Source: Actinomycetota bacterium
GTDB lineage: Bacteria > Actinomycetota > Actinomycetes > Mycobacteriales > Mycobacteriaceae
Direction of reading: 5' to 3'
DNA length: 51,691 nt
Assembly (NCBI GenBank): GCA_018268465.1
Contig: JAFDWN010000065.1
Location: 1-51,691 of the forward strand
Shown: one piece after another, positions 1,278 to 15,587 of the stretch
Layout of the letters: every line of letters starts with the position of its first letter
How positions within the stretch are numbered: position 1 is the stretch's first letter
Notes under the pieces: generated by a model
What the model saw: only the letters and a program-made list of their open reading frames with translations
Databases searched by the model: none
What the model was told of the DNA's origin: nothing
Made by a program: the position numbers and the translations under genes

Positions 1278-1538
1278 GTGAGCAGGACGCTGCTCATCGT
1301 TCACCACACGCCCTTACCGCACTGCCAGGAGATGTTCGAGGCGGTGGTGTCCGGCGCGACCGACCCGGATATCGAGGACGTCGAGGTCACGCGTCGGCCG
1401 GCGCTGACGGTGTCGCCGGTCGACATGCTGGAGGCCGACGGCTACCTGTTGGGCAGCCCGGCCAACCTCGGGTACATGAGCGGCGCGCTCAAACACTATT
1501 TGGTCGAATACCCGCTTAGTAGAAGAACTCCCAGCTAG
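1278..1538 (+). pseudogene. 5' half of flavodoxin-like gene, split by element
   Basis: Residues 1-73 (up to S-G-A-L-K-H) are the N-terminal half of a flavodoxin/NADPH-dependent FMN reductase-like protein (positional equivalent of Rv2771c). The last 13 residues are read through from the inserted element and end at TAG 1536-1538. The missing second half lies at 9742-9978. Joining 1278-1496 to 9742-9978 restores an open frame of 151 residues without any change, so the gene was intact before insertion. The fragment keeps the host promoter and ribosome site and ends overlapping the start codon of the element's own copy (TAGTG), so it now acts in effect as a leader ORF. The truncated product is unlikely to fold. 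Confidence 0.93.
1471..1513. other. attL junction
   Basis: Host flank 1471-1490, core AAACAC 1491-1496, element flank 1497-1513 ending in ATACCC (1508-1513). The element flank is the right arm of the reconstructed attP palindrome. The core falls on codons Lys72-His73 of the host gene. Confidence 0.85.
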
Positions 1539-1990
1539 TGGCCCGCTTACTGATCATCCATCACACGCCGAGCCCGCACTGTCAGGAGATGTTCGAGGCG
1601 GTCGTGGCGGGAGCCACCGATCCCGACATCGAGGGTGTGGAGGTGGTGCGCCGCCCCGCGCTCACGGTGTCACCTGTCGAGATGCTTGAAGCCGACGGCT
1701 ACCTGTTGGGCTCGCCGGTCAACCTCGGCTACGTCAGCGGGGCTTTGAAGCTTGCGTTCGACCAGTCCTATTACCAGTTGCTCGACTCGACCCGTGGCCG
1801 ACCGTTCGGGCTGTGGCTCCACGGCAACGAGGGCACCGAAGGAGCCGAGCGCGCCATCGACGGAATCACCGCCGGGCTCGGTTGGGTCAAGGCGACCGAT
1901 CACGTCGTCGTCTCGGGCAAGCCCACGAAGGCCGACGCCGAGGCGTGCTGGAACCTCGGGGCCACCGTGGCGGCGACCCTCATGGCCTAG
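1538..1990 (+). CDS. Element-borne intact flavodoxin-like protein
   Basis: Complete 150-residue homologue of the gene the element interrupts, presumably a flavodoxin-fold NAD(P)H/FMN oxidoreductase. Counted by eye it differs from the rejoined host protein at about 11 of the first 73 positions and 14 of the last 78, so it is a diverged orthologue and not a recent duplication. Its GTG start (1538-1540) shares one base with the TAG of the truncated host fragment. Translation would therefore be coupled to the host gene's own initiation; the nearest purine-rich stretch (AGAAGAA) is about 14 nt upstream. At the position equivalent to the attachment core the copy reads TTGAAGCTTGCG and lacks AAACAC. 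It ends 4 nt before the convergent R-M gene. The biochemical activity of the family is not established here. Confidence 0.88.
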   Translation: MARLLIIHHTPSPHCQEMFEAVVAGATDPDIEGVEVVRRPALTVSPVEMLEADGYLLGSPVNLGYVSGALKLAFDQSYYQLLDSTRGRPFGLWLHGNEGTEGAERAIDGITAGLGWVKATDHVVVSGKPTKADAEACWNLGATVAATLMA

Positions 1991-1994
1991 GTAT

Positions 1995-4814
1995 TCAGGG
2001 CGTGAGCCGGTAGGTGGTGGTGTACGCCTCGGGCCGTCCGCCGCCGCCGGGAGCTGTGGCAACGGCCGGATCAGCGGCTGCTGCGAGGTTCAAGGCGAGC
2101 AACTGAGCCAGAAGGTCCTCCTCAGGGTTGAACCCGTAGGCGGCGATGACAACCGAGTCCAGATGGTCGTGAAGATCGCGTAGTTCGGCCTTGCCCGGTG
2201 TCCTCAGCGCGTCGTACTGATCGCCGAGGGCGATGCCCTCGGCCAGTCGTGCCGCTCGGTACTCGGTGATGGCGGCCATCGCTTGGGCGACTTCGGCGAC
2301 GGCCGAGTCGGAGGGAGCCGTCGGCCACGGGAAGGAATCCCAGACGGTAGTGGACGTATATCGCGGCCGGGCCTCCAACCGTGAGCATCGTTCATCGAGC
2401 CAGGCGCGGTGGAGCGCGGAAGACACGATCCCGAGCGAGTAGTCGTCATCGAGCGCGAGCACCGACAGCGAGTCATCCGGTCGGATCGACGGGTCGATGA
2501 ACTGGAAGACAGACGTCCGCCGCTCCGTGGCAACCCTAGAGGTGGCGATGTAGCGGTCGACGGCCCCGATGGCGTCGAGCATTTCAACCCGTCGATAGGA
2601 GTGTTGCCACCACTTGTTGAGGAAGTTCCGGTTGTGCCAGCGCACAGAAGCTCTCGGGTTCCGTTCGAGAATGGCCGCGTTGTCCCTCGCCTCCTCGTCC
2701 GCCGCTTGTTGTCGGCCTGGCAGTACCAGGGTCTGCAGTCGGGCCAGCGCGCCGCGGGCTTCAGCGGCCACCCTGACCGCGTCGGTATGGGGCAAGTCGA
2801 TGATCAGGTTTGTAGTCCCCAGCGCGTGGAGCAAGCCGTTCCCCCCGATTAGGGGGTGAATGAATGACGCTGAGCCTGGGTCCCTTCGAGTAATCTCAGC
2901 GGCCTCGTCTGGAGTGAGTCGGAACGCTGAGACGTGCCCGGCGGTTTGCCCTTGGAAGCACCGCTTCGGCCTCTTGTTCTGGGCCAGTGAGACGGCCCTG
3001 CGTACATCAGTTGTCGGTCGGAGTGATGGCGCGATTTCCTCGACCGGCAATCGGAGTTGTCCGTTGTCGAGCCAAAGCACCTTCGTCTCGGGGGCGTGGG
3101 CGGCACCTTTGACCCAGTTGACGATCGACACAGTGACGGCGGCATCGCCGGACCACGGCTGCGATGAAATCGCCTCGAATATGACTCCGTCGTTGTCGAC
3201 GATGTAGTCCAGTGAGGCTGGCCGTGAATGGCCCGCACGGATAGCCTGCGTCGCTACGAAACCTGCGCGGCCTCCATCCGGTAGTGCATTGTGCGCCAAC
3301 GGAAACCAGTACGTGACGAAATCGCTCACGCCAGGGCCGGGGTACCTTTCGTCAAGGCGGGAGCAGTAATCAGCGCCGAGTTCTTCGGCCATCTTGCGTC
3401 GGCCCATGTACGGCGGATTGCCGATGATGACGTCCGCGTTGGGCCAGTCGGAGAACAGGGCATCCCGACACCGGATTGAGTCATCCAGGTTGTCTAGCGG
3501 GAGGGCGTCCACGTACTCCTCCAACTCGTCCGCCGCGAGCTTCTTGGCCATCATCATCGTCACCTTCGCCACCTCGACCGCGAACGCGTTGTTGTCGATA
3601 CCCATGAAGTGGTCGGGCGTGACGTACGAGATCGTCGCCTGACCCTGGCGAGCCCTCCGTCGCGCCAGGATTCGGTTCTTCACCTCGACCTCCAGGCGGC
3701 GCATCTCGCGATACGCGACGTAGAGGAAGTTGCCCGATCCGCACGCGGGGTCGAGCACGCGATAGTTGGCCATCGCTAGCTGAATCTGTTCGAGATCGCC
3801 GATTGTCTTTGCGGCTTCGATTCGTTCAAGCCACGGGTCAACGATGCAGGGAATCACCACGCGGGCAATGTCCGCCTGCGATGTGAAGTGCGCGCCGTAG
3901 GCGTGGCGCTCATCCTTGTCCATCGAGGTCTCGAACAGCGTGCCGAAGATTTCGGGCCGCACCGCCGCCCAGTTGGTCGTGCATGCCCATCGGATCGCAT
4001 TGAGCTCGTCTCGGTTCATCTCAATCGGCGTGATGTTCTCGAAAATGCCGCCGTTGAAGTAGGGGGTCCCCGCGAACTGTCCGCCCCTTGTACGGCCTGG
4101 CGTGTTCATCTCTCGGAACAGGGAGCCAAGCAAGTCATAGGCCTCACGGCCCGACCTGGCTTCCTCGACAACGCGGGTGAAGAACTTTTCCGGGAGCAAG
4201 AAGATGTCCTCGGCGAACATCGCCACGACCGACTGGAGAACGAAATGCTGAGCATCCAGCCTCGGGATGCCACGGTCCTTCATCGAGCGAAACACGCTGG
4301 ACACCTGGGCCGCTGCCTCGCGCGTGACTTGAACGAGATCGTTGCCGAATAGCGGCGTCTCAGGCTCCGGCAACAGGAACGCCAGCACTTCCCGCCGGTT
4401 GACGAGATCATCAAGCTTGAGCACGTCCATCGGAGCGTCGAGTTGTAGGTCGAAGTCGTAGACCCAGAACTCGTCGAAGTTGCACAGCACCACGTAATTC
4501 GGGCGGTGTGGCACGACCTGGATCCAATGCTGGAACGCCTGGCGGAAGTGCTTCGACAGGTCAGTCCCGGCCTTCTTCATCTCGATGATGCAGCGCGACT
4601 CCCACAGGAGGTCAGCGAACGAGGTGCCCCGTGACTCGGTGTTCCGTACGCGCGCTTCCAGCGTCGCCCCGGCCTCCCGCACGCCGCCGTGACCGAACGC
4701 CTTGAACAAGCGGTCCAGGAAGACCTGGGCCTCGCCCTTCTCGTCCCCCGTCAGGAGGTTGTGGCGGTACGCGATGAAGTCGGCGAGGTCTTGCTGGAGC
4801 GTCTCAGGCTGCAC
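1995..4814 (-). CDS. MmeI-like type IIL restriction-modification enzyme
   Basis: Single-chain enzyme of about 939 residues combining nuclease, N6-adenine methyltransferase and DNA recognition, the architecture and length of the MmeI family. The N-terminal nuclease motif is D68-x9-E78-x-K80, exactly the MmeI spacing. Methyltransferase motif I is L-D-P-A-C-G-S-G-N-F (354-363) and motif IV is N-P-P-Y (466-469). Near the C-terminus L-E-A-R-P-R-Y followed by F-P-W-P marks the target-recognition/helical region typical of MmeI relatives. In this family one protein both modifies one strand and cuts about 20 bp away, so no separate methylase is needed. The GTG at 4814 was chosen because AGGGG lies about 8 nt upstream and alignment with MmeI begins there; an in-frame ATG at 4907 would add 31 low-quality residues. 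Target sequence cannot be read from this. Confidence 0.9.
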   Translation of the reverse strand: MQPETLQQDLADFIAYRHNLLTGDEKGEAQVFLDRLFKAFGHGGVREAGATLEARVRNTESRGTSFADLLWESRCIIEMKKAGTDLSKHFRQAFQHWIQVVPHRPNYVVLCNFDEFWVYDFDLQLDAPMDVLKLDDLVNRREVLAFLLPEPETPLFGNDLVQVTREAAAQVSSVFRSMKDRGIPRLDAQHFVLQSVVAMFAEDIFLLPEKFFTRVVEEARSGREAYDLLGSLFREMNTPGRTRGGQFAGTPYFNGGIFENITPIEMNRDELNAIRWACTTNWAAVRPEIFGTLFETSMDKDERHAYGAHFTSQADIARVVIPCIVDPWLERIEAAKTIGDLEQIQLAMANYRVLDPACGSGNFLYVAYREMRRLEVEVKNRILARRRARQGQATISYVTPDHFMGIDNNAFAVEVAKVTMMMAKKLAADELEEYVDALPLDNLDDSIRCRDALFSDWPNADVIIGNPPYMGRRKMAEELGADYCSRLDERYPGPGVSDFVTYWFPLAHNALPDGGRAGFVATQAIRAGHSRPASLDYIVDNDGVIFEAISSQPWSGDAAVTVSIVNWVKGAAHAPETKVLWLDNGQLRLPVEEIAPSLRPTTDVRRAVSLAQNKRPKRCFQGQTAGHVSAFRLTPDEAAEITRRDPGSASFIHPLIGGNGLLHALGTTNLIIDLPHTDAVRVAAEARGALARLQTLVLPGRQQAADEEARDNAAILERNPRASVRWHNRNFLNKWWQHSYRRVEMLDAIGAVDRYIATSRVATERRTSVFQFIDPSIRPDDSLSVLALDDDYSLGIVSSALHRAWLDERCSRLEARPRYTSTTVWDSFPWPTAPSDSAVAEVAQAMAAITEYRAARLAEGIALGDQYDALRTPGKAELRDLHDHLDSVVIAAYGFNPEEDLLAQLLALNLAAAADPAVATAPGGGGRPEAYTTTYRLTP

Positions 4815-5034
4815 GGCTCGGCCCCTGAGTCGGCGCGAACGATTCCGATGGTGTCGAGGCCATGACTGGCACTGTAGGGCGGTCCACCGACGCTTATGTG
4901 GTGGCACACCGTGGGCGGCAAAGCCCGAGCCCTCGACTCACTTAGGTCTCGATGACGTGGAAGCTTGGTCACGACCGCTCCGATCGGCCTCGATCTTGTT
5001 GCCGCCCGTGGAAGTATTCACAGCCAAAGGTCGG
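4815..5034. promoter_or_regulatory. Divergent intergenic region of the element
   Basis: About 220 bp between the R-M gene (leftward) and the nucleotidyltransferase-like gene (rightward) must hold promoters for both. No clear -10/-35 pair or repeat was recognised. Open frames crossing it have no family resemblance. Confidence 0.4.
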
Positions 5035-5547
5035 ATGGGGCACTCAGGCGGGGGACAACGGTTGCCAATTCCAGCTACGGGCGGTCCGTATGCGACGCTG
5101 CCCGCCGGTCGACACACGGCCACCCTCAGCGAGGTCTACGAGACCTTCGTGGAACAGGCACCGTTCCGCCCGCGCCGAGAGCTGATCTTCCGGGCGCTGG
5201 CGCTGTACGTCGACCTCGTATCGCCGCAGTTCACCGCATGCAGGTACTGGATTAACGGCGGTTTCGTCACACATAAGCCCTGGGCCGAACCAGAGGACGC
5301 CGACCTGGTGGTTGTCGTACCCCCAGGGGAGGCTGCGAAGGTGACGCAGCCAGAGTTCTTGCCGCTGCTCAGCCTGCCGAGCACGGCGGGCAAGGTCCAC
5401 CCGATGGGCGGGTTGATCGACAGCTTCGTGGCCATCGACCACCCGATGGCGCTATCGCCTTGGGAACTCACCTGGTCATCGGTGCGGGATCAGCATCACA
5501 ATGTTGTTCCAGGCGTCAGCAAGGGGTTTCTGGAGGTGAGTGCGTAG
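5035..5547 (+). CDS. DUF6932-like nucleotidyltransferase-fold protein
   Basis: About 170 residues resembling small proteins of the DUF6932 type, which look like minimal nucleotidyltransferases. The key motif is visible: G75-G76, eleven residues, then D88-A-D90 followed by four valine/leucine residues, the hG[G/S]...Dh[D/E]h metal-binding pattern of MNT enzymes. The N-terminus has the usual L-P-A-G-x-H-x-A-T-L-x-E-V motif (22-34). The ATG at 5035 was chosen because family similarity begins just after it; a longer open frame upstream reads through non-coding-looking sequence and into the R-M gene's opposite strand. Its stop TAG overlaps the GTG of the next gene. MNT proteins often act as antitoxins or defence effectors; the substrate here is unknown. 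Confidence 0.72.
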   Translation: MGHSGGGQRLPIPATGGPYATLPAGRHTATLSEVYETFVEQAPFRPRRELIFRALALYVDLVSPQFTACRYWINGGFVTHKPWAEPEDADLVVVVPPGEAAKVTQPEFLPLLSLPSTAGKVHPMGGLIDSFVAIDHPMALSPWELTWSSVRDQHHNVVPGVSKGFLEVSA

Positions 5548-6566
5548 TGGCGACCGATCACGAATTGGAGGCGTCGCTGGTCGACGCACTCAGGTACACC
5601 TCGGGTGACCCCGCCTCGGACCGCGTTCTGCATGAGTCGATCCGCGCCGGGATCGTCCGTGACGACGCCGAGCTCCTCAACATCTACGAGCGTGAGGTCG
5701 GGCCAGAGCAGGCCGAGGTCGACCTTCACCTGGTCGGCCCCGGCATCGAGCAGAACACCGCCAACGCGCGTCAGTTCTCCCTGTTCGTCAGCGGCATCAG
5801 CGACGCCGTGAAGGAGACCGCCAAGGCCCGCGTGGGCCGTCGGCGCTACCGGGACAACCTACTGATCGAGGGCGCGACGCCCGGCTCGGTCAGGGTGGTG
5901 CTTCGAGTGGCCGCACCGACCGTGCCCGAGACACAGACCGTCGATGAGGAGACTGTGGCGTCCAGCGTCGATTCGGATGCGCTGCGAACGGTCGCGTCGA
6001 TCCTGGCTCATGCCAGCGACCCCGATCTCGATACGCCGCTGGTTGCCGAAATTGCGGACCTGCCGATCAGGGCGCGTACCGCCCTGAAGCGGGTTGCGAA
6101 CGCCTCTCAGCAGGGCGGCTGGGCGGTCAGGGGAATGATCCGGCAGCGCCGGGTTGGCGCGGCGGGCCTTGAGCTGACCAACGAGGGCGCGACCCGGCTG
6201 CGGATCGAGCTTGAGGTGGCGCAGGAGAAGCGCCGCCGGGAGACCCGCACCGGCACCATCGACGGATTCCGGTGGTCCCTCGGCACGCTGTACTTCGACC
6301 CAGTGGACGCGCCCGCGTTCACCGCTGGTGTGATGGAAAGCCGTGTGGCTCAAGAGGTCACCGGCCTGATGAACGATCCCGAGCTACGGGTATCAGCAGA
6401 TTTCGATGTAGTGGAGTCGTACCTACCGGGTGATCAGACGCGCTCTCGCGTCAGCCGCGTGCTGATAGGCATTCGCCCGCTCGGGGAGCAAACCGCGTTT
6501 CCTCTCGATGAACCTGCCGGGGGCCTGCCTGGTCCGCCGAAGGAACTGCCACCTGGAACTAGCTGA
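5547..6566 (+). CDS. Unrecognised 339-residue partner of the NTase-like gene
   Basis: No family recognised. It is soluble, rich in charged residues and begins at GTG 5547, overlapping the previous stop (TAGTG), with GGAGG about 11 nt upstream, so the two genes are translationally coupled. The first half (to residue about 140) contains a segment R-Q-F-S-L-F-V-S-G-I-S-D-A-V-K-E-T followed by beta-rich R-D-N-L-L-I-E-G-A-T-P-G-S-V-R-V-V-L-R-V. The second half has alternating strands and a helix around A-L-K-R-V-A-N-A. There is no signal peptide or membrane segment and no Walker or nuclease motif that I can name. The tight pairing suggests a joint function, possibly a toxin-antitoxin or anti-phage pair (inference). 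Confidence 0.75.
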   Translation: MATDHELEASLVDALRYTSGDPASDRVLHESIRAGIVRDDAELLNIYEREVGPEQAEVDLHLVGPGIEQNTANARQFSLFVSGISDAVKETAKARVGRRRYRDNLLIEGATPGSVRVVLRVAAPTVPETQTVDEETVASSVDSDALRTVASILAHASDPDLDTPLVAEIADLPIRARTALKRVANASQQGGWAVRGMIRQRRVGAAGLELTNEGATRLRIELEVAQEKRRRETRTGTIDGFRWSLGTLYFDPVDAPAFTAGVMESRVAQEVTGLMNDPELRVSADFDVVESYLPGDQTRSRVSRVLIGIRPLGEQTAFPLDEPAGGLPGPPKELPPGTS

Positions 6567-6568
6567 CC

Positions 6569-7603
6569 TCAGCGGCCTCCGATCTGGCGTCGCATCCACG
6601 ACGGTGGCGGTGGCATCGTGCCCTCGCGCACCCGGCGCACGACGTCGAGCGGTGACGCGAAGGCCCACGCCTGGCCCATCGAGTGGACCAGCACGTCGTG
6701 GGCGACCACCAGGGCGGCCAACGCGTCGGGCTGGTGTTGACCGGCCTGCCAGGTGACCGCCGCGCTTTCCAGACCGGGGAGGTGCCCGGCGATGCGGGTG
6801 GTGCCGGTTTCGAAGCCCTGGAGCAGCGCCGACGACCGGGCGATGGCGTCACCGCCGCCTCGGCCCGAGCCCTTCGGCGGCCAGGTGGTCACGTTCACGG
6901 GCCGGTTGAGCTTGGCCCGGCGCAGCGCCTCCTTCACCACGCGCTGATAGGTCTCGCGGGCGGCGAACCCCTCGACGGCGATCTCGGACGCCCCGACGTC
7001 CACGGCCAGATCGACCGCCGCCCTTGCCCATTGGTCGCTTGTCATCGGGGCCGACAGATCGGCGATCACCGCGACCATGCCCTCGGCGGTCAGGCTCGCG
7101 GCCACGATGCCGCAGGCGTCGCCTGAGCCCGAGTCGGAGGGGTCTACCCCGACGACGGTCTTCACGACGCCCAGCGGCGCGCTGGGGAGCCGCCACTGGT
7201 CGAACCATTCGCGCTTGACCAGACCGCCCTCGGGGGCCGAAGGCACACCCTCGTACAGGGCGTACCAGGCCCGCTCGCCCGAGGTGCGGCGGGCGGCGGC
7301 GAAGTGGTCGGCGGTAAACCCGAGCGCCGACGTCATGGCGACGCCGGGCGCTCGCCCGAGGGCGTCGGGCACGCCGGTATCCGCGACGGCGGGCACGTTG
7401 GTGTGAGTCCACACGTCGGGCTCGGCGTCGAGCAGTTCACCGGCCAGATCCCGTTCGTGCCAGCGGGTCATCACCAGCAGCACCGACCCGCCGGGGTGGA
7501 CGCGGGTGGCCAGGGTCGAGCGGTACTCGGTGATCACCCGGCGGCGGTGGGCGGCTGAGTCGGCCTCGGCCTCGTCGCCGACGTTCGAGGTAGTCTCTGT
7601 CAT
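6569..7603 (-). CDS. Phage terminase large subunit remnant (nuclease half)
   Basis: 344 residues corresponding to the C-terminal nuclease of a large terminase. Residues 14-57 keep the last part of the ATPase domain (E-A-D-S...H-P-G-G-S-V...M-T-R-W-H-E-R-D-L), but Walker A and Walker B are absent. The RNase H-like nuclease looks whole: D154 in V-G-V-D-P-S, E211 in I-A-V-E-G-F, D293 in H-Q-P-D-A-L-A. AGGAG lies 3-7 nt before the ATG at 7603, so the short form appears to have its own ribosome site; an in-frame start at 7666 would include half of a hairpin. Without ATPase it cannot package DNA. It is either a relic or a reused nuclease. It is convergent with the gene ending at 6566. Confidence 0.8.
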   Translation of the reverse strand: MTETTSNVGDEAEADSAAHRRRVITEYRSTLATRVHPGGSVLLVMTRWHERDLAGELLDAEPDVWTHTNVPAVADTGVPDALGRAPGVAMTSALGFTADHFAAARRTSGERAWYALYEGVPSAPEGGLVKREWFDQWRLPSAPLGVVKTVVGVDPSDSGSGDACGIVAASLTAEGMVAVIADLSAPMTSDQWARAAVDLAVDVGASEIAVEGFAARETYQRVVKEALRRAKLNRPVNVTTWPPKGSGRGGGDAIARSSALLQGFETGTTRIAGHLPGLESAAVTWQAGQHQPDALAALVVAHDVLVHSMGQAWAFASPLDVVRRVREGTMPPPPSWMRRQIGGR

Positions 7604-7639
7604 GTCTCCTGCTTTGATGGGGTAGGGGTCGTCGGTGGC

Positions 7640-7677
7640 AACGCCGCCCGGTCGAGGCCCAAGCACCGGGCGGCGTT
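7640..7677. terminator. Perfect 13-bp stem hairpin between HTH and terminase genes
   Basis: AACGCCGCCCGGT (7640-7652) and ACCGGGCGGCGTT (7665-7677) pair perfectly around a 12-nt loop. It lies 64 nt beyond the stop of the HTH gene and just upstream of the terminase ribosome site. No U-run follows on the minus strand, so it could be an intrinsic terminator of the U-less actinobacterial type or a translational control element. Confidence 0.55.
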
Positions 7678-7740
7678 CACTGTTTCTAGGTCGTGCCAGT
7701 CACGTTGTGCGCCTCCGGTTCTGGGCGTCAAGTGACGTGG

Positions 7741-8103
7741 TCAGCAGTTGCCGCGAGCATTTGCCTGGCTCAGAGCGAGGAGAAGCTGACCGGCCCGACG
7801 TAGATCGTCGGCACTGAACTTGGCGACCTGAGCGGCGACCCACGCCGGATCTACAGGCGTCGAGGCGTCGGGGCTGACGGGCAGCGTCGTAGTGGCGGGA
7901 TCAACGTCACCATCACCGTCGCGGCTGCGCGTCCAGGCGGCGACCTCATCGGCCAGGTACATGCGCCGCCGCCCGACGCGATGTGACGGCAGCCCGTGGT
8001 GCTTGCTGAGTCTGACGATTCGGTCGGGGGAGACCGCACCGCCGAATATCTCGGCGCTGACTTCCTCGGGTGTCAGAAAGCGATCAATGGTGATGGCGGA
8101 CAA
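7741..8103 (-). CDS. Helix-turn-helix protein, excisionase-like
   Basis: 120 residues. Residues 8-60 (F-L-T-P-E-E-V-S-A-E-I-F...R-I-V-R-L-S-K-H-H-G-L-P-S-H-R-V-G-R-R-R-M-Y-L-A-D-E-V-A-A-W) form the winged-helix/MerR-like DNA-binding fold of recombination directionality factors and small phage regulators. The C-terminal half is an acidic linker and a short helix. Lying next to the serine integrase, transcribed with it and separated by about 165 bp, it is the natural candidate for the directionality factor that turns integration into excision. It could equally be a repressor. Confidence 0.7.
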   Translation of the reverse strand: MSAITIDRFLTPEEVSAEIFGGAVSPDRIVRLSKHHGLPSHRVGRRRMYLADEVAAWTRSRDGDGDVDPATTTLPVSPDASTPVDPAWVAAQVAKFSADDLRRAGQLLLALSQANARGNC

Positions 8104-8267: not shown

Positions 8268-9713
8268 CTAACGACTTTCGTGTCCGAGCGCCCGACTGTC
8301 GATCAGGATGCCGCCCTCCTTGGGGTGCCACCGGCTGGTCACACGCTCGACCTCGATCGTCATCACGGCGCGGATGAACTCACGCCTGGCCGTCAGCGGC
8401 AGGCCCCGCCACATCGCCACCGGATCAGGAGCGGTGGCCAACTGACGAACGATCGGTTCCGTATAAGTCGGGGCGGTGGTCTTCTCCAGTTCGGCGATCC
8501 GCTCGGCCAGCCGGGTCGCCACCCGCGCGCCCACGTCGGCGGGCATCGACAAATCGGCTAGCTTGTCCTCGATGGCCTGTAGCTGGTGCCTGAGGTCGTC
8601 CAGGTCGGCCTTAGCGGTCGAGTTCGGCTCAGCGGGTGGCGCGGACAATGCAGCCAGCGCCTCGGGCGTCGTGAGGATGCCCTCGACCACTGACAAGATC
8701 ACTTCGTCCACCTGGCCGAGATTGCGTCCTACGCAGCCCTTCCGGCACTTGTAGACCTCGTAGGGTGAGCCGTCTCTCTTCCGCCCGGCCTTGCCGCGCC
8801 AGATCTTCTCCTCGCACACCGCGCACGACGCGATACCCGACAACAGATGGATCGGCTCAGGCCCGCGCGGGCCGGTCTTGCGGGCGGCGAACATGGCCAC
8901 CAGGTCGTCGTGCTGCTCGGGTGTCAACAGCGGTTCCCACGTGCCCTCGCCGTGGATCATCTGCGGGCCACGTTTGCCGTTGACCTTGTGGCTCTGTGTG
9001 CGGTACCCGGCGCTGGTCGGGTTGAGCAGGATTCGCCTCAGCTTGGCCCCGTTCCACCGGGGATCGGGATCCTTGGCGGCGATCCACCGCACCGTCGATT
9101 CGAGGCTGTGGCCGTCGAGCACACGCCGCGCCGCCTCGGCGACCAGAGGAGCGCGCGCCGGATCGGGCACCCGTCCGGTGGCCCTGCCGGTCTCAGGATC
9201 GCGAACGATCTTGTAGCCGTACGGAACCCGACCGTGAGGCTTGCCTGCGGCGAGGTTGGCACGGTGGGCGCGGACGATGCGCTTGCGGATGTCCTCGGCC
9301 TCACGCTCGGCGATCAGTGCGTCGAGGCCGGTAGCGAAACGGTCGTTGCCGTCGTCCATGTCGAACAGCCGACCGGAGTAGGAAAGCAGCACACCGCGTT
9401 CGGTGCACAACCGCCGCAGATCGACATAGTGGTCCAGCGAGCGACCCGCCCGGCTGGCCTCCCAGACCACCAGAACGTCGCCGGGCCGCAGCACCGAGCG
9501 CAGCCGCTCGTACTCGGGACGGTCCTTGGTGGCGAACCGCGTGGCGCTGCGGTCGTTGTCGATCAGCACCTCGCCGACGGGCCAGCCCCGGCGCTCGCAC
9601 TCGGCCCGGCATTCGGCCTCCTGCTCCGTGACCGAGCGGCCTCCGGCGCGATCGGACGAGACGCGGGTGTAGACGATTGCGCGGGTGACCTGCGCGGATT
9701 CGGGGTGAGCCAT
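8268..9713 (-). CDS. Large serine integrase
   Basis: 481-residue site-specific recombinase of the large serine family. The N-terminal catalytic domain has Y-T-R-V-S (15-19) with Ser19 as likely nucleophile and the arginine-bearing W-E-A-S-R-A-G-R-S (84-92). A recombinase domain follows (about 155-265), then a zinc ribbon with Cys297, Cys300, Cys323 and Cys327, and a coiled coil near residues 368-395. Such enzymes recombine attP with attB without supercoiling or host factors and need a directionality factor for the reverse. The ATG is only 22 bp from the attachment core and has no ribosome site. A TAnnnT hexamer (TACCCT, 9720-9725 on the minus strand) is spaced for leaderless transcription starting at the ATG, which places part of the promoter within the attachment site. 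Confidence 0.95.
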   Translation of the reverse strand: MAHPESAQVTRAIVYTRVSSDRAGGRSVTEQEAECRAECERRGWPVGEVLIDNDRSATRFATKDRPEYERLRSVLRPGDVLVVWEASRAGRSLDHYVDLRRLCTERGVLLSYSGRLFDMDDGNDRFATGLDALIAEREAEDIRKRIVRAHRANLAAGKPHGRVPYGYKIVRDPETGRATGRVPDPARAPLVAEAARRVLDGHSLESTVRWIAAKDPDPRWNGAKLRRILLNPTSAGYRTQSHKVNGKRGPQMIHGEGTWEPLLTPEQHDDLVAMFAARKTGPRGPEPIHLLSGIASCAVCEEKIWRGKAGRKRDGSPYEVYKCRKGCVGRNLGQVDEVILSVVEGILTTPEALAALSAPPAEPNSTAKADLDDLRHQLQAIEDKLADLSMPADVGARVATRLAERIAELEKTTAPTYTEPIVRQLATAPDPVAMWRGLPLTARREFIRAVMTIEVERVTSRWHPKEGGILIDSRALGHESR

Positions 9714-9720
9714 ACTATAA

Positions 9721-9760
9721 GGGTATCGGACAAATAAACACGCCTTCGACGTTTGCTACT
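9721..9760. other. attR junction
   Basis: Element flank 9721-9735 beginning GGGTAT, core AAACAC 9736-9741, then the host gene from 9742. The element flank is the left arm of the reconstructed attP palindrome. Host codons run AAA CAC GCC TTC across the core. Confidence 0.85.
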
Positions 9761-9978
9761 ACCCGTGCCTGGACGCCACCCGTGGGCGACCGTTCGGGCT
9801 GTACCTGCACGGCAACGAGGGCACCGAGGGCGCCGCGCGGGCGGTGGACGGGATCACCGCCGGCCTGGGATGGGTTAAGGCGACGGGATACGTCACGGTG
9901 TCGGGCAAGCCGACCAAGGCCGACCTGGAAGCCTGCTGGAACCTCGGAGCGACGGTCGCCGCGTCGTTGATGCGGTGA
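9742..9978 (+). pseudogene. 3' half of the split flavodoxin-like gene
   Basis: Encodes the last 78 residues of the host protein, beginning A-F-D-V-C-Y-Y and containing G-R-P-F-G-L-Y-L-H-G-N-E-G-T-E-G, ending at TGA 9976-9978. It has no start codon or ribosome site of its own and is separated from its 5' half by the element. The frame is clean, with no other lesion, so insertion was recent or the site is regenerated by excision. Confidence 0.92.
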
Positions 9979-10084
9979 GGCGTCAGCAACGGGGGTACCC
10001 GTCGTGTGGATCGAGGGCGGCAGAACACCGCTAGCGTGACTCTCACCGAATTCATCACCTCCCGAACAGAAACGAAGACCGACC

Positions 10085-12235: not shown

Positions 12236-12973
12236 TCAGGAGAGATGCTCGCCGAAGAATTCCCTGGTGGCTGCCCAGTGCCGCCGCGCGGCGGATTCGT
12301 CGTAGGGCACATTGTCGGGCACCGCGAACCCATGTCCGGCCGGGTAGGTCTCGATCGTGTGCCGCACACCGGCGGAGGTCAGCGCCGTGTCGAGTGTTTC
12401 GCCCTGCTCGGGCGTGAAGGACGGATCATCCGCGGCGCCGGCCACGAAGACCGCCGCGCGAATCCGGTCGGCGAGCAGATGCGGGCTGTCCGGCTTGTCG
12501 CTCACGAGACCGCCGCCATGGAACGACATCGCCGCGGCGACCCGCTCAGGCACCCGGCCCGCCACCACGAGCGACGTCCGCCCACCCATGCAGTATCCCG
12601 TCGTCCCGAAGGCGGTGCCGACGACCTCGGGCCGCGACTGCAGGTGATCGAAGAAGGCTGCCGCGTCGCCGGCCATGGTTTCGGGGGTCAGCGCGCCCAT
12701 CATCGCGAACAGCCGCGCGCGCTCGGATTCGTCGCCGAACACCGTGGCGATGTCGAAGGGCGCCCAGTCGCCGCTGCGGTAGTAGACGTCGGGCACCAAC
12801 ACCGCGTAGCCGTAACCCGCCAGCTGGGCGGCCATATCGCGGAAAGTGTCCCGCAGGCCGCCGGCGTCGGGATACATCACCACGCCGGGCCAGGGGCCCG
12901 TCCCGTCCGGGGTGGCGAAGACGACGGGGCAGGTCCCGTCCGCGGCGGTCACGGTGTCGGAGATGGTCGGCAT
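12236..12973 (-). CDS. Dienelactone hydrolase family protein
   Basis: 245-residue alpha/beta hydrolase. The nucleophile elbow is G-Y-C-M-G-G with Cys128 in place of Ser, the hallmark of dienelactone hydrolases; P-A-G-H-G-F near residue 220 supplies the catalytic His. Start ATG 12973 (M-P-T-I-S-D-T-V) is chosen because the family begins there; an open frame continues far upstream only because it is antisense to thyA. Matches the position of Rv2765 in M. tuberculosis, where it is likewise divergent from thyA. Substrate unknown. Confidence 0.9.
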   Translation of the reverse strand: MPTISDTVTAADGTCPVVFATPDGTGPWPGVVMYPDAGGLRDTFRDMAAQLAGYGYAVLVPDVYYRSGDWAPFDIATVFGDESERARLFAMMGALTPETMAGDAAAFFDHLQSRPEVVGTAFGTTGYCMGGRTSLVVAGRVPERVAAAMSFHGGGLVSDKPDSPHLLADRIRAAVFVAGAADDPSFTPEQGETLDTALTSAGVRHTIETYPAGHGFAVPDNVPYDESAARRHWAATREFFGEHLS

Positions 12974-13084
12974 GGCCTCCGTTCTACTCTTCGCCCCTGA
13001 CACCGCGCGCACGGTGCGGAAATGCGGCCGGGTACCGCCGTGGCAGGGTTTGACCGCGTGATGCCCCGCGATAGGCTGGCCGGC

Positions 13085-13885
13085 GTGCCGATTCCGACGC
13101 CCTATGAGGATCTGCTCCGCCTGGTGCTCGACACCGGCACCCCCAAGTCGGATCGCACGGGCACCGGCACCCGCAGTCTGTTCGGCCACCAGATGCGTTA
13201 TGACCTGAGCGCGGGTTTCCCGCTGATCACCACCAAGAAGGTGCACACCAAGTCGGTGATCTACGAGTTGCTGTGGTTCCTGCGCGGCGACTCCAACGTG
13301 CGCTGGCTGCAGCAGCACGGCGTCACCATCTGGGACGAATGGGCAAGCGAGGCAGGTGATCTCGGTCCTATCTACGGGGTGCAGTGGCGGTCGTGGCCGA
13401 CGCCGTCCGGTGCGCACATCGACCAGATCACCAACGCGTTGCAGCTGCTGCGCAGCGACCCGGACTCGCGGCGCAACATCGTGTCCGCCTGGAACGTCGG
13501 CGAGATCCCGCAGATGGCGCTGCCCCCGTGTCACGCGTTCTTCCAGTTCTACGTCGCCGACGGCAGGCTGAGTTGCCAGCTCTACCAGCGCAGCGCCGAC
13601 CTGTTCCTCGGTGTGCCGTTCAACATCGCCAGCTACGCGTTGCTCACGCACATGATGGCCGCGCAGGCCGGGCTCGCGGTGGGGGAGTTCGTCTGGACCG
13701 GCGGGGACTGCCACATCTATGACAACCACGTCGATCAGGTCGCCTTGCAGCTCGGACGCGAGGCCCGCCAGTACCCGGAACTTGCTCTAGCGCAGCGTGA
13801 TTCGATTTTTGACTACACCTTCGACGATATCGAGATCAAGAACTACGACCCGCATCCGGCGATCAAAGCACCCGTCGCCGTATGA
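13085..13885 (+). CDS. thyA: Thymidylate synthase (folate-dependent, ThyA)
   Basis: Converts dUMP to dTMP using methylene-tetrahydrofolate. The protein has D-R-T-G-T-G-T (23-29), the active-site L-P-P-C-H with Cys149, [15 protein letters not shown] (about 169-183) and the C-terminal A-P-V-A-V typical of mycobacterial ThyA. GTG 13085 gives 266 residues, matching family length; an in-frame ATG at 13061 would add eight. dfrA overlaps its stop by ATGA, so the enzyme that recycles the dihydrofolate made here is translationally coupled. The genome also has thyX at 22165. Confidence 0.95.
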
Positions 13886-14367
13886 GTCCGGTCGGTCTCA
13901 TCTGGGCGCAGTCCACCTCCGGAGTGATCGGCCGGGACAACGGCATCCCGTGGCGGCTGCCCGAGGACCAGGCCCGGTTCAAGGAGATCACCCTGGGGCA
14001 CACGGTCGTCATGGGCCGGCTGACCTGGGAATCGCTGCCCAGAAGGGTGCGCCCGCTGCCGGGCCGCAGAAATGTCGTAGTCACCAGGCAAGCTGACTAC
14101 ATGGCTGACGGTGCGGATGTCGTGGGGACGCTCGATGAGGCGCTCGGCGACGGCGAGGTATGGGTGATCGGCGGGCAGCAGATCTTCGCGCTGGCGTTGC
14201 CCGCGGCGACGCGGTGCGAGGTCACCGAGATCGAGGTCGACGTGCGGCGCGAGGACGGTGACGTCGTCGCCCCGGTGCTCGACGAGACGTGGCGGGGGAC
14301 GGTCGGGGACTGGCGGGACAGCGCATCGGGGATGCGCTACCGGTTCCACACCTATCTGCGGGCATGA
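13882..14367 (+). CDS. dfrA: Dihydrofolate reductase
   Basis: 161 residues, NADPH-dependent reduction of dihydrofolate. Shows the N-terminal [19 protein letters not shown] (6-24, substrate loop), L-P-E-D (26-29) with the active-site acid, [10 protein letters not shown] (44-53), and the NADPH-binding V-W-V-I-G-G-Q-Q-I (about 93-101). ATG overlaps the thyA stop (ATGA), and its own stop overlaps the next start in the same way. Confidence 0.96.
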
Positions 14368-15587
14368 CCCGGCTGACCCGGGCCCAGGCCCGGCGGATTG
14401 CGGTCGCGGCTCAGGGTTTCCACGAACCGCGCGCGGGTGGGCCGGTGACCCGCGGACATCTCAAACGGCTGATCGCCCGCATCCAGGTGTTGCAGCTCGA
14501 CTCGGTGTCGGTGGCGGTGCGCGCCCACTACGCGCCGGTGTTCAGCCGGCTGGGTCCCTACGACCGGGATCTCGTGGATCGGGCCGCGTGGAGTCACAGC
14601 GCTCGCTCGCCACGGCTGCTGGTCGAATACTGGGCGCACGAGGCGGCGCTGATGTCCGTGGAGGACTGGCCGTTGCTGCGGTGGCGGATGCGCGAGTACG
14701 CCGACGGCCGCTGGGGTAAGGAGATCGTGCGCAAGAACGCGCGGCTGGCCCAGGACATCGTCGCCGCCGTGGCGGAGTTGGGACCGTCGACGGCAGGCCA
14801 GATCGAGGAGCACCTGGAAGCCGAACCGCGCGGCCGCAAGGGACCGTGGTGGGACCGCAGTGACACCAAATGGGTCGCCGAGGCGCTGTTCGCCTCTGGG
14901 GTACTGACGACGGCCACCCGGGTCGGATTCGCCAGGCACTACGACCTCACCGAGCGGGTGCTGCCGCCCGAGGTGATGGCCAGGGAGATCGGCGATGAGG
15001 ACGCTGTGCGGCAGCTCGCACTGCGCGCCGCCACCGCCCTCGGCATCGCCACCGAGGCCGATATCAGAGACTACTTCCGGCTGCCCGCCGCGCCGGTCAA
15101 ACCGGCGATCGCGGCGCTGGTGTCCACCGGTGAGCTGGCCCGCGTTGAGGTGGACGGCTGGTCGTCTCCGGCGTATCTGAGTGTGGGACAGAAGATTCCG
15201 CGACGCGATCAGGGCACGGCACTGCTGTGTCCGTTCGACCCGCTGATCTTCTTCCGTCCGCGGGTGGAGCGGTTGTTCGATTTCCACTACCGCATCGAGA
15301 TCTACGTGCCTGCCGCGAAGCGTCAGTACGGCTATTACGTGTGGCCGTTCCTGCTCGACGGTGAACTGGTGGCGCGGGTCGATCTCAAGGCCGACCGGAC
15401 GTCGGGCGCGCTGCAGGTGCTCGGCGCGTTCAGCGAGCACGGACGCGATCGTACCCGGGTGGCCGCCGCGCTGGCGGCAGAGCTCGTCACGATGGCCGGC
15501 TGGCTGGGGCTGCCGGACGTGACGATCGGGACGCGGGGGGATCTGGCGTCGGCGCTGCGGCGCCACGTCATGGCGCCGCAGCCGTGA
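14364..15587 (+). CDS. YcaQ-like winged-helix DNA glycosylase
   Basis: 407 residues of the HTH_42/YcaQ family, whose E. coli and Streptomyces members (AlkX, AlkZ) unhook interstrand crosslinks and bulky alkyl adducts. Three winged-helix units are expected; the catalytic loop Q44-L-D46 in [11 protein letters not shown] matches the family Q-x-D/Q motif. The C-terminal barrel region has [15 protein letters not shown] (about 288-302). The start overlaps the dfrA stop (ATGA), making thyA-dfrA-ycaQ a coupled operon. Whether it acts on crosslinks or monoadducts is open. Confidence 0.88.

Follow-up and report, generated by a model that had tools for sequence, protein, structure and literature searches.

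Integrating elements are known to make good the damage they do: attP usually carries a replacement sequence, as described in the part of PMC10111431 available to us, and tRNA genes and icd are restored in this way. The element described here, which lies in a flavodoxin-like gene, is like these attP-borne systems in that it supplies what its integration breaks, and we regard it as a variant of target-gene restoration in which the replacement is a separate complete gene. In the tRNA gene and icd systems, the replacement lies in the attP/att identity block and a recombinant target gene is made, whereas in the elements studied here the core is 2–6 nt in length and the replacement has its own start, often in a stop-start overlap with the broken half of the target.

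Other described systems share some but not all of these properties. The streptococcal ICEs and prophages at rumA, mutT and hsdM as well as the Listeria element at comK also combine a serine recombinase, very short repeats and a coding gene as target; however, according to the accessible part of PMC4701971, the target gene stays broken or is restored by excision, whereas here a complete replacement is carried. Helper-embedded PICIs also capture a complete gene near their site, a "backup intact copy", but their target is a late gene of the helper prophage, and the portion of PMC10111431 on which we draw makes no mention of stop-start coupling, of chromosomal gene turnover or of core-deleted copies. 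Mycobacterial PICI-like elements are also small and contain an integrase and phage genes such as terminase; they are, however, defined by an integrase and a capsid gene, and no capsid was identified here among the proteins scanned, which represent part of the ORFs, while the text of PMC10654092 available to us mentions neither a flavodoxin target nor a carried complete replacement gene. In the open-licence literature, which leaves most subscription journals outside, we came across no account of serine-integrase elements with a complete replacement gene that evolves separately and is start-stop-coupled; likewise, in this literature no description of core-deleted carried alleles was found, Rv2771c gave no match, and the accessible text of PMC11357604 and PMC6957869 offered nothing relevant.

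The window, i.e. the whole stretch of DNA analysed (51,691 nt), starts with a host operon of the order dapB-TPR-flavodoxin, all on the forward strand. dapB (43–780) was assigned based on its ORF, on the same gene order in genomes without an insertion footprint, and on an annotated dapB in a Tsukamurella record; it is followed by an ORF for a TPR-like membrane protein (794–1261), a conserved neighbour whose product we take to be of the TPR/Rv2772c type. The third gene, which encodes a flavodoxin-like protein, is interrupted within host codon 73 by a serine-integrase element of 8,245 nt from core to core (~8.2 kb). By tblastn and reading frame, the 5' half of the host gene spans 1278–1495 on the forward strand, with coding sequence at 1278–1493 (72 codons) followed by the CA core at 1494–1495; by tblastn, the 3' half spans 9739–9979 on the same strand. 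A previous sequence-only reading of this DNA had placed the break after codon 73; the split itself is confirmed, with its position differing by a fraction of a codon: 72 whole codons precede the inferred crossover, which falls on the first two nucleotides of host codon 73, the equivalent of codon 72 in the carried copy. Comparison of attL and attR in 11 elements places attL at 1474–1519 (host half, CA core, element arm) and attR at 9716–9760 (element arm, CA core at 9739–9740, host half).

Between the two att sites lies a complete flavodoxin-like gene of 150 aa from the FMN_red family (1538–1990, forward strand), identified by its ORF, tblastn and a domain match, and the 3' half of the host gene sits 7.7 kb beyond it. 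Therefore, the split gene and the complete 150-residue homologue inside the left end, as originally read, are all present in the window. The replacement is not part of an att identity block fused to the host part but a separate gene beginning 42 nt beyond the core; the spacing originally given was 41 nt. The original estimate of about 25 differences between the host halves and the copy also agrees with our count, in which the 5' piece differs at 11 of 71 positions and the 3' piece at 13 of 77 codons, with residue 72 in addition. At the opposite end, the element encodes a large serine recombinase of 481 aa (8268–9713, reverse strand) that matches Pfam Resolvase (1.7e-24) and Recombinase (5.3e-9) as well as PHROG 95 (integrase) and exceeds the length of at least 400 residues that we required in addition to these domains.

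For a comparison of junctions, we used the 11 elements that have both ends on one contig and a full integrase; G158, with its ends on two contigs, was excluded. These elements range in length from 8.2 kb (the window, the shortest) to 15.7 kb. The stretch common to attL and attR is 2–6 nt long and includes CA in all 11, and in G057 and G606 it consists of CA alone. CA forms the first two bases of the His codon that follows a conserved Lys codon. Because CA is always common to both ends and always at this place in conserved Lys-His codons, the crossover dinucleotide is very probably CA; and with no more than 2 bp common to attL and attR in some elements, a long att repeat cannot restore the target. 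Across 38 left junctions, the crossover place reads CA in 31 and CG in two (the second junction of G019, and G240), and was extrapolated beyond the match in five. Compared as a possible imperfect inverted repeat, the attP arms match at 12 of 18 positions in the window and at 6–11 of 18 in the other ten elements, these counts being the best of seven ungapped shifts with no random control.

To place the integrase among its relatives, we used a pattern-based scan by integrase alignment of 84,980 species, each represented by one genome, which yielded 36 loci. The eight genome loci with an integrase at least 60% identical and a virus contig (L106) are all at the same codon of the same flavodoxin gene, in four genera; the genomes are those of M. 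persicum, M. attenuatum, Mycobacterium sp. 141, Gordonia jinhuaensis, Rhodococcus sp. HNM0563, Tsukamurella asaccharolytica, T. spumae and an uncultured bin. At all eight loci and on the virus contig, the flavodoxin 3' half lies within ~75 nt of the integrase. No flavodoxin match was found near the more distant integrases (0 of 32, i.e. 28 genome loci and four virus contigs, up to 10 kb on each side and less at contig ends). Because flavodoxin was not used in the integrase search, the presence of the copy is tested here without bias: seven of the eight genomes contain a complete copy, which in M. persicum (G158) is on a different contig from the integrase. In Gordonia jinhuaensis the copy is truncated, with ~22 codons kept and then an apparent internal deletion. 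Thus, related elements at this site generally carry the copy, but not as a strict rule. The virus contig shows the 3' half only and was probably cut before its left end. The arrangement in the window is not due to chance, since loci of several genera have an identical break point and carry this gene as well. Of note, M. shimoidei (G191) has an integrase of 54–56% identity elsewhere in the genome (L065, 9836–11278) and an intact flavodoxin gene (L066), and target choice, therefore, seems to shift between ~54 and 60% identity.

Of 35 split loci read, all of them with a 5' half, 34 continue into a complete copy on the same strand and at most ~2 kb from attL. In a sample of 297 genomes from the same genus, 287 had a flavodoxin match at E 1e-20 and 19 had more than one; all 19 contain a complete gene, in 18 cases with a 5' piece upstream. 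In the remaining genome, G257 (L060 with L061), the complete gene lies close after the TPR gene and the 3' half is on another contig. Closer reading revealed additional 5' remnants in G074 and G153. In a family-level sample of 401 genomes, 18 genomes from other genera had more than one match and 17 of them hold the complete gene, the exception being G312, taken as Gordonia jinhuaensis. Two halves without a complete copy would also give two matches, yet apart from G312 this was not seen in these samples. In G485 and G524 the complete gene is close after the TPR gene (L233, L236) with only a 3' piece beyond, and G506 is similar with a wider gap; the pattern in G257, G485 and G524 is as if the 5' half had been lost through recombination with the copy.

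At eleven loci (G266, G050, G176, G240, G264, G364, G582, G643, G365, G501, G602), both halves survive as remnants with no full-length integrase of the window type between them, which leaves room for other kinds of integrase, and a complete copy is retained at every one of these loci. A plain tandem host gene without an element, which would have spoken against the original reading, was not present in any sampled genome, and genomes without a footprint have one gene after the TPR gene. The nearest to a tandem arrangement are G569 and G579, in which the 5' half directly precedes the copy and no 3' half was detected in the genome at E 1e-5; in both, a scar resembling an attP arm lies between the 5' half and the copy. 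Two near-complete genomes, G023 and G042, gave no match with either of the two flavodoxin types described below, and together with the truncated copy in Gordonia jinhuaensis this suggests that the gene is not indispensable.

The sequence-only reading had also claimed that the read-through frame of the broken half stops at a TAG (1536–1538) overlapping the GTG start of the copy at 1538, and this TAGTG (1536–1540, forward strand) is confirmed by the reading of ORFs and frames. To place this observation in context, we traced the broken frame to its first stop in 38 left junctions of 35 loci and scored whether this stop overlaps the start codon of any ORF with 50 or more codons. The stop overlaps an ORF start in 22 of 38 junctions compared to 1366 of 5762 random positions (binomial p 6.5e-6, uncorrected for relatedness); the latter frequency (24%) documents that such overlaps often arise by chance in this GC-rich DNA. 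In 13 junctions the overlapped ORF is the complete copy: by TAGTG in the window, G158, G091, G240, G264, G275 and G074 (in G074 with an extrapolated frame), by ATGA in G582, G606, G365 and G501, and by GTGA in G569 and G579. These overlaps occur after 15, 18, 19 or 23 codons and are, therefore, present despite differing spacer lengths. In seven junctions (G057, G063, G087, G298, G364, G643, G602) the stop overlaps an intervening ORF that precedes the copy, and the idea that the copy is always first after attL is, therefore, not correct. The remaining two overlaps lead into the truncated copy of Gordonia and, at the first junction of G158, into a copy broken later. An overlap of the kind tested is absent in 16 of 38 junctions; in Tsukamurella, the likely start of the copy, as read by eye, is upstream of the stop, giving a longer overlap. 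A 355-codon ORF lies between attL and the copy in L047 (2079–3146) and in L053 (8072–9139, reverse strand), and the broken frame ends on its start codon (GTGA); in L047 (G063) this intervening ORF is a DUF4238 protein.

The flavodoxin genes are of two types that are ~54% identical, type A (the window) and type B (e.g. M. shimoidei). Eight Mycobacterium hosts (G050, G074, G091, G153, G158, G240, G264, G275) have B-type remnants and an A-type complete copy, while G260 shows the reverse, i.e. A-type remnants and a B-type copy. Because remnant and copy differ in type, the carried gene in these hosts is not a duplicate of the host's gene. We compared protein identities in 17 chosen pairs. For the window and G019, the copies are 96.6% identical while TPR and dapB are 72.7% and 84.1% identical; for G057 and G266, the corresponding values are 97.3%, 72.9% and 85.7%. 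In G063/G087, G091/G074 and G157/G206, identity of the carried copies is without excess over the flanks, and flavodoxin is generally better conserved than TPR, as in the footprint-free pair L005/L009 (flavodoxin 86.3%, TPR 67.6%, dapB 83.6%). For these reasons, only window/G019 and G057/G266 provide strong evidence for movement between distant hosts. The claim that the copy is old and separately evolving is supported in that its nearest relative in the sample is the copy of another element, that of G019. Over 148 codons, these two copies show 35 synonymous and 5 non-synonymous differences, and these mostly synonymous differences as well as the retention of the copy in the 11 loci without a full-length window-type integrase fit selection for the carried gene.

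For phylogenetic analyses, we used 152 complete genes, obtained after nine duplicate loci of the same genomes had been dropped, comprising 23 genes behind a 5' half (three of them from Rhodococcus/Tsukamurella), the gene of G257, and 128 genes without a detected 5' half. The latter, "footprint-free" genes are a non-random draw of better-scoring A-type matches and of B-type matches, and 11 of them are separated from TPR by an unusually long distance, in which old remnants may be hidden. In the careful tree, the footprint-free B-type genes were thinned to three and G257 was labelled as element by hand; G602, which is from another genus, is in neither the careful nor the quick tree. Fifteen changes of the element label are required on the best careful tree, suggesting that the copies have probably often passed between hosts and elements, and a single origin of the carried copies was rejected on this basis. 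A phage origin of the copy was rejected because none of 50,697 phage records matched flavodoxin at E 1e-3, and a plasmid origin because the plasmid collection had no integrase match at E 1e-40, with the limitation for both that records near the window's genome may be left out; 102 phage records had an integrase match, all below 60% identity. The closest flavodoxin in the plasmid collection is in Tsukamurella tyrosinosolvens NZ_LR134457.1 (L225), which is named plasmid 15 but has dapB and dapA beside this gene, also contains thymidylate synthase and further genes of chromosomal appearance, and is probably a mislabelled piece of the chromosome.

Stacked insertions are present at two loci. In G158 (L048, 2380–2960), a decayed B-type 5' half is joined by TAGTG to an A-type copy; this copy has itself been interrupted at the same Lys codon and is joined by a second TAGTG to another copy, and in G019 (L045, 6700–8130, reverse strand), two successive 5' halves precede the complete copy. 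We conclude from these loci that a carried copy with a CA core can become the next target. However, not all copies retain the core. In the window, the crossover codon of the carried copy is Leu (CTT, 1751–1753), and Leu or Val (CTT, CTG, GTG, GTC) is found at this codon in eight of 38 insertion-linked copies, i.e. those of the window, G057, G266, G153, G257 and G602 and the last copies of G158 and G019. These 38 copies are the 23 behind a 5' half, of which six have Leu/Val, G257, and 14 others including G602. His (CAC/CAT) occupies this codon in 127 of the 128 genes for which no 5' half was detected; none of the 128 has Leu/Val, and one, L221 (G056), has Tyr (TAC) and has thus also lost the CA core. 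The difference is significant in a Fisher test (p = 1.5e-4; 6 of 23 vs 2 of 129, the second group including G257 and the Tyr gene), whereas a sign test of Leu/Val against element carriage on independent pairs, which takes relatedness into account, is not, there being too few informative pairs. Leu/Val needs five changes on the careful tree (best tree and 5–95% range of 200 bootstrap trees, the bootstrap being unsettled). Because the well-supported branches force three changes for Leu alone in the quick tree but only one origin of Leu/Val in the careful tree, we regard convergence as unproven. A serine integrase is expected not to recombine a site that has lost the central dinucleotide. Because a Leu or Val codon removes the CA core, a copy of this kind should resist the same integrase.

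Our working hypothesis, which we consider likely as a whole, is that the window contains a member of a self-complementing element family that integrates in a conserved flavodoxin-like gene and brings a complete copy of it. In this model, the serine integrase of a phage-satellite-like integrative element would target the Lys-His codons with core CA, as found in every locus read, and the element would bring a whole gene inside attL in place of a long att repeat. After integration, the host operon transcript would run through the broken half; because in many elements the broken frame reads through the attP arm without interruption and stops on the next start codon, ribosomes could pass from it to the carried gene (at TAGTG here, at ATGA or GTGA in relatives). 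We infer that the copy is made from the host promoter with start-stop coupling, is functional, and lowers the cost of integration. The presence of the copy in seven of the eight genomes found via the integrase and in 34 of 35 split loci supports self-complementation at the level of sequence. A copy that keeps CA would be a new landing site, while a Leu/Val copy, the window's included, would be closed to the same integrase. These considerations are suggestive of a relay, to which we assign even chances, in which each integration would break the current gene and install a coupled copy as the host's only one, and this copy would outlive its element and be the next landing site until Leu/Val closes the site; in this way, elements would, in the long term, drive the replacement of a conserved Mycobacteriales operon gene by foreign versions.

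We considered three alternative explanations. If the complete gene were ordinary cargo, or host DNA captured by chance and kept beside attP, with no role in softening the integration, then the scatter of carried copies over the gene tree with its 15 label changes would be as expected from repeated host captures, and a truncated copy as in Gordonia jinhuaensis would be no surprise. We nevertheless find this improbable, because in 34 of 35 loci the element carries precisely the gene that it splits, on the same strand and within ~2 kb of attL, because start-stop overlap with the copy is found in 13 of 38 junctions, because 11 loci without a full window-type integrase keep the copy, and because the window and G019 copies differ by 35 synonymous vs 5 non-synonymous codons. 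Even less probable is a reversible switch that regulates gene integrity, as at sigK, mutL and comK, with an incidental copy: serine-integrase and satellite elements can act in this manner (accessible parts of PMC4701971 and PMC10111431) and an Xis-like gene adjoins the integrase, but a carried copy would make excision needless for gene function and the same 11 loci still keep it. That the element landed in the first of two tandem host flavodoxin genes would explain a complete gene directly after a partial one on the same strand; with the copy between both att sites and the 3' half 7.7 kb further, one gene after TPR in the sampled footprint-free genomes, and B-type remnants beside an A-type copy in B-type hosts, we regard this possibility as negligible.

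Self-complementation would provide a sequence-level answer to the question of how elements with a 2-bp core can land in conserved protein genes, in a case in which the gene is seen passing from element to element in many hosts, and it predicts integrase-resistant alleles that arise from a single codon. Because the His core codon is near-invariant (127 of 128 sampled genes), these integrases are also candidates for use in actinobacterial integration tools that supply the disrupted gene anew.

As for the type of element, the longer relatives L046, L047 and L050 encode an integrase, an Xis-like gene, a prim-pol or AAA helicase, and a terminase large subunit (TerL) of 519–540 aa, with stretches of replication and packaging genes at 13625–15364, 12364–14904 and 5447–8071, respectively. 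With this gene content, and with no capsid identified among the proteins scanned, they look like possible phage satellites of actinobacteria. Ten of their proteins gave no match in PADLOC. In the window element, the phage terminase large subunit is truncated (6569–7666, reverse strand; PHROG 38, profile positions 421–743 of 760), an HTH protein next to the integrase is a candidate excisionase (7741–8103, reverse strand; Pfam HTH_17, weak PHROG 66 match at E 8e-4), and no replication gene was identified in the part of its ORFs scanned. The rest is cargo. A protein of unknown function (5460–6566, forward strand) has a 76% identical relative in the element remnant of G050 and an NCBIfam LAPAL match far under the cut-off. 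An MmeI-like type IIG restriction enzyme-methyltransferase of 970 aa (1995–4907, reverse strand; Pfam MmeI domains, PADLOC REase_MTase_IIG) and an ORF with a C-terminal DUF6932/PDC-M63A domain (4702–5547, forward strand; domain match, true start probably later) are possibly involved in anti-phage defence.
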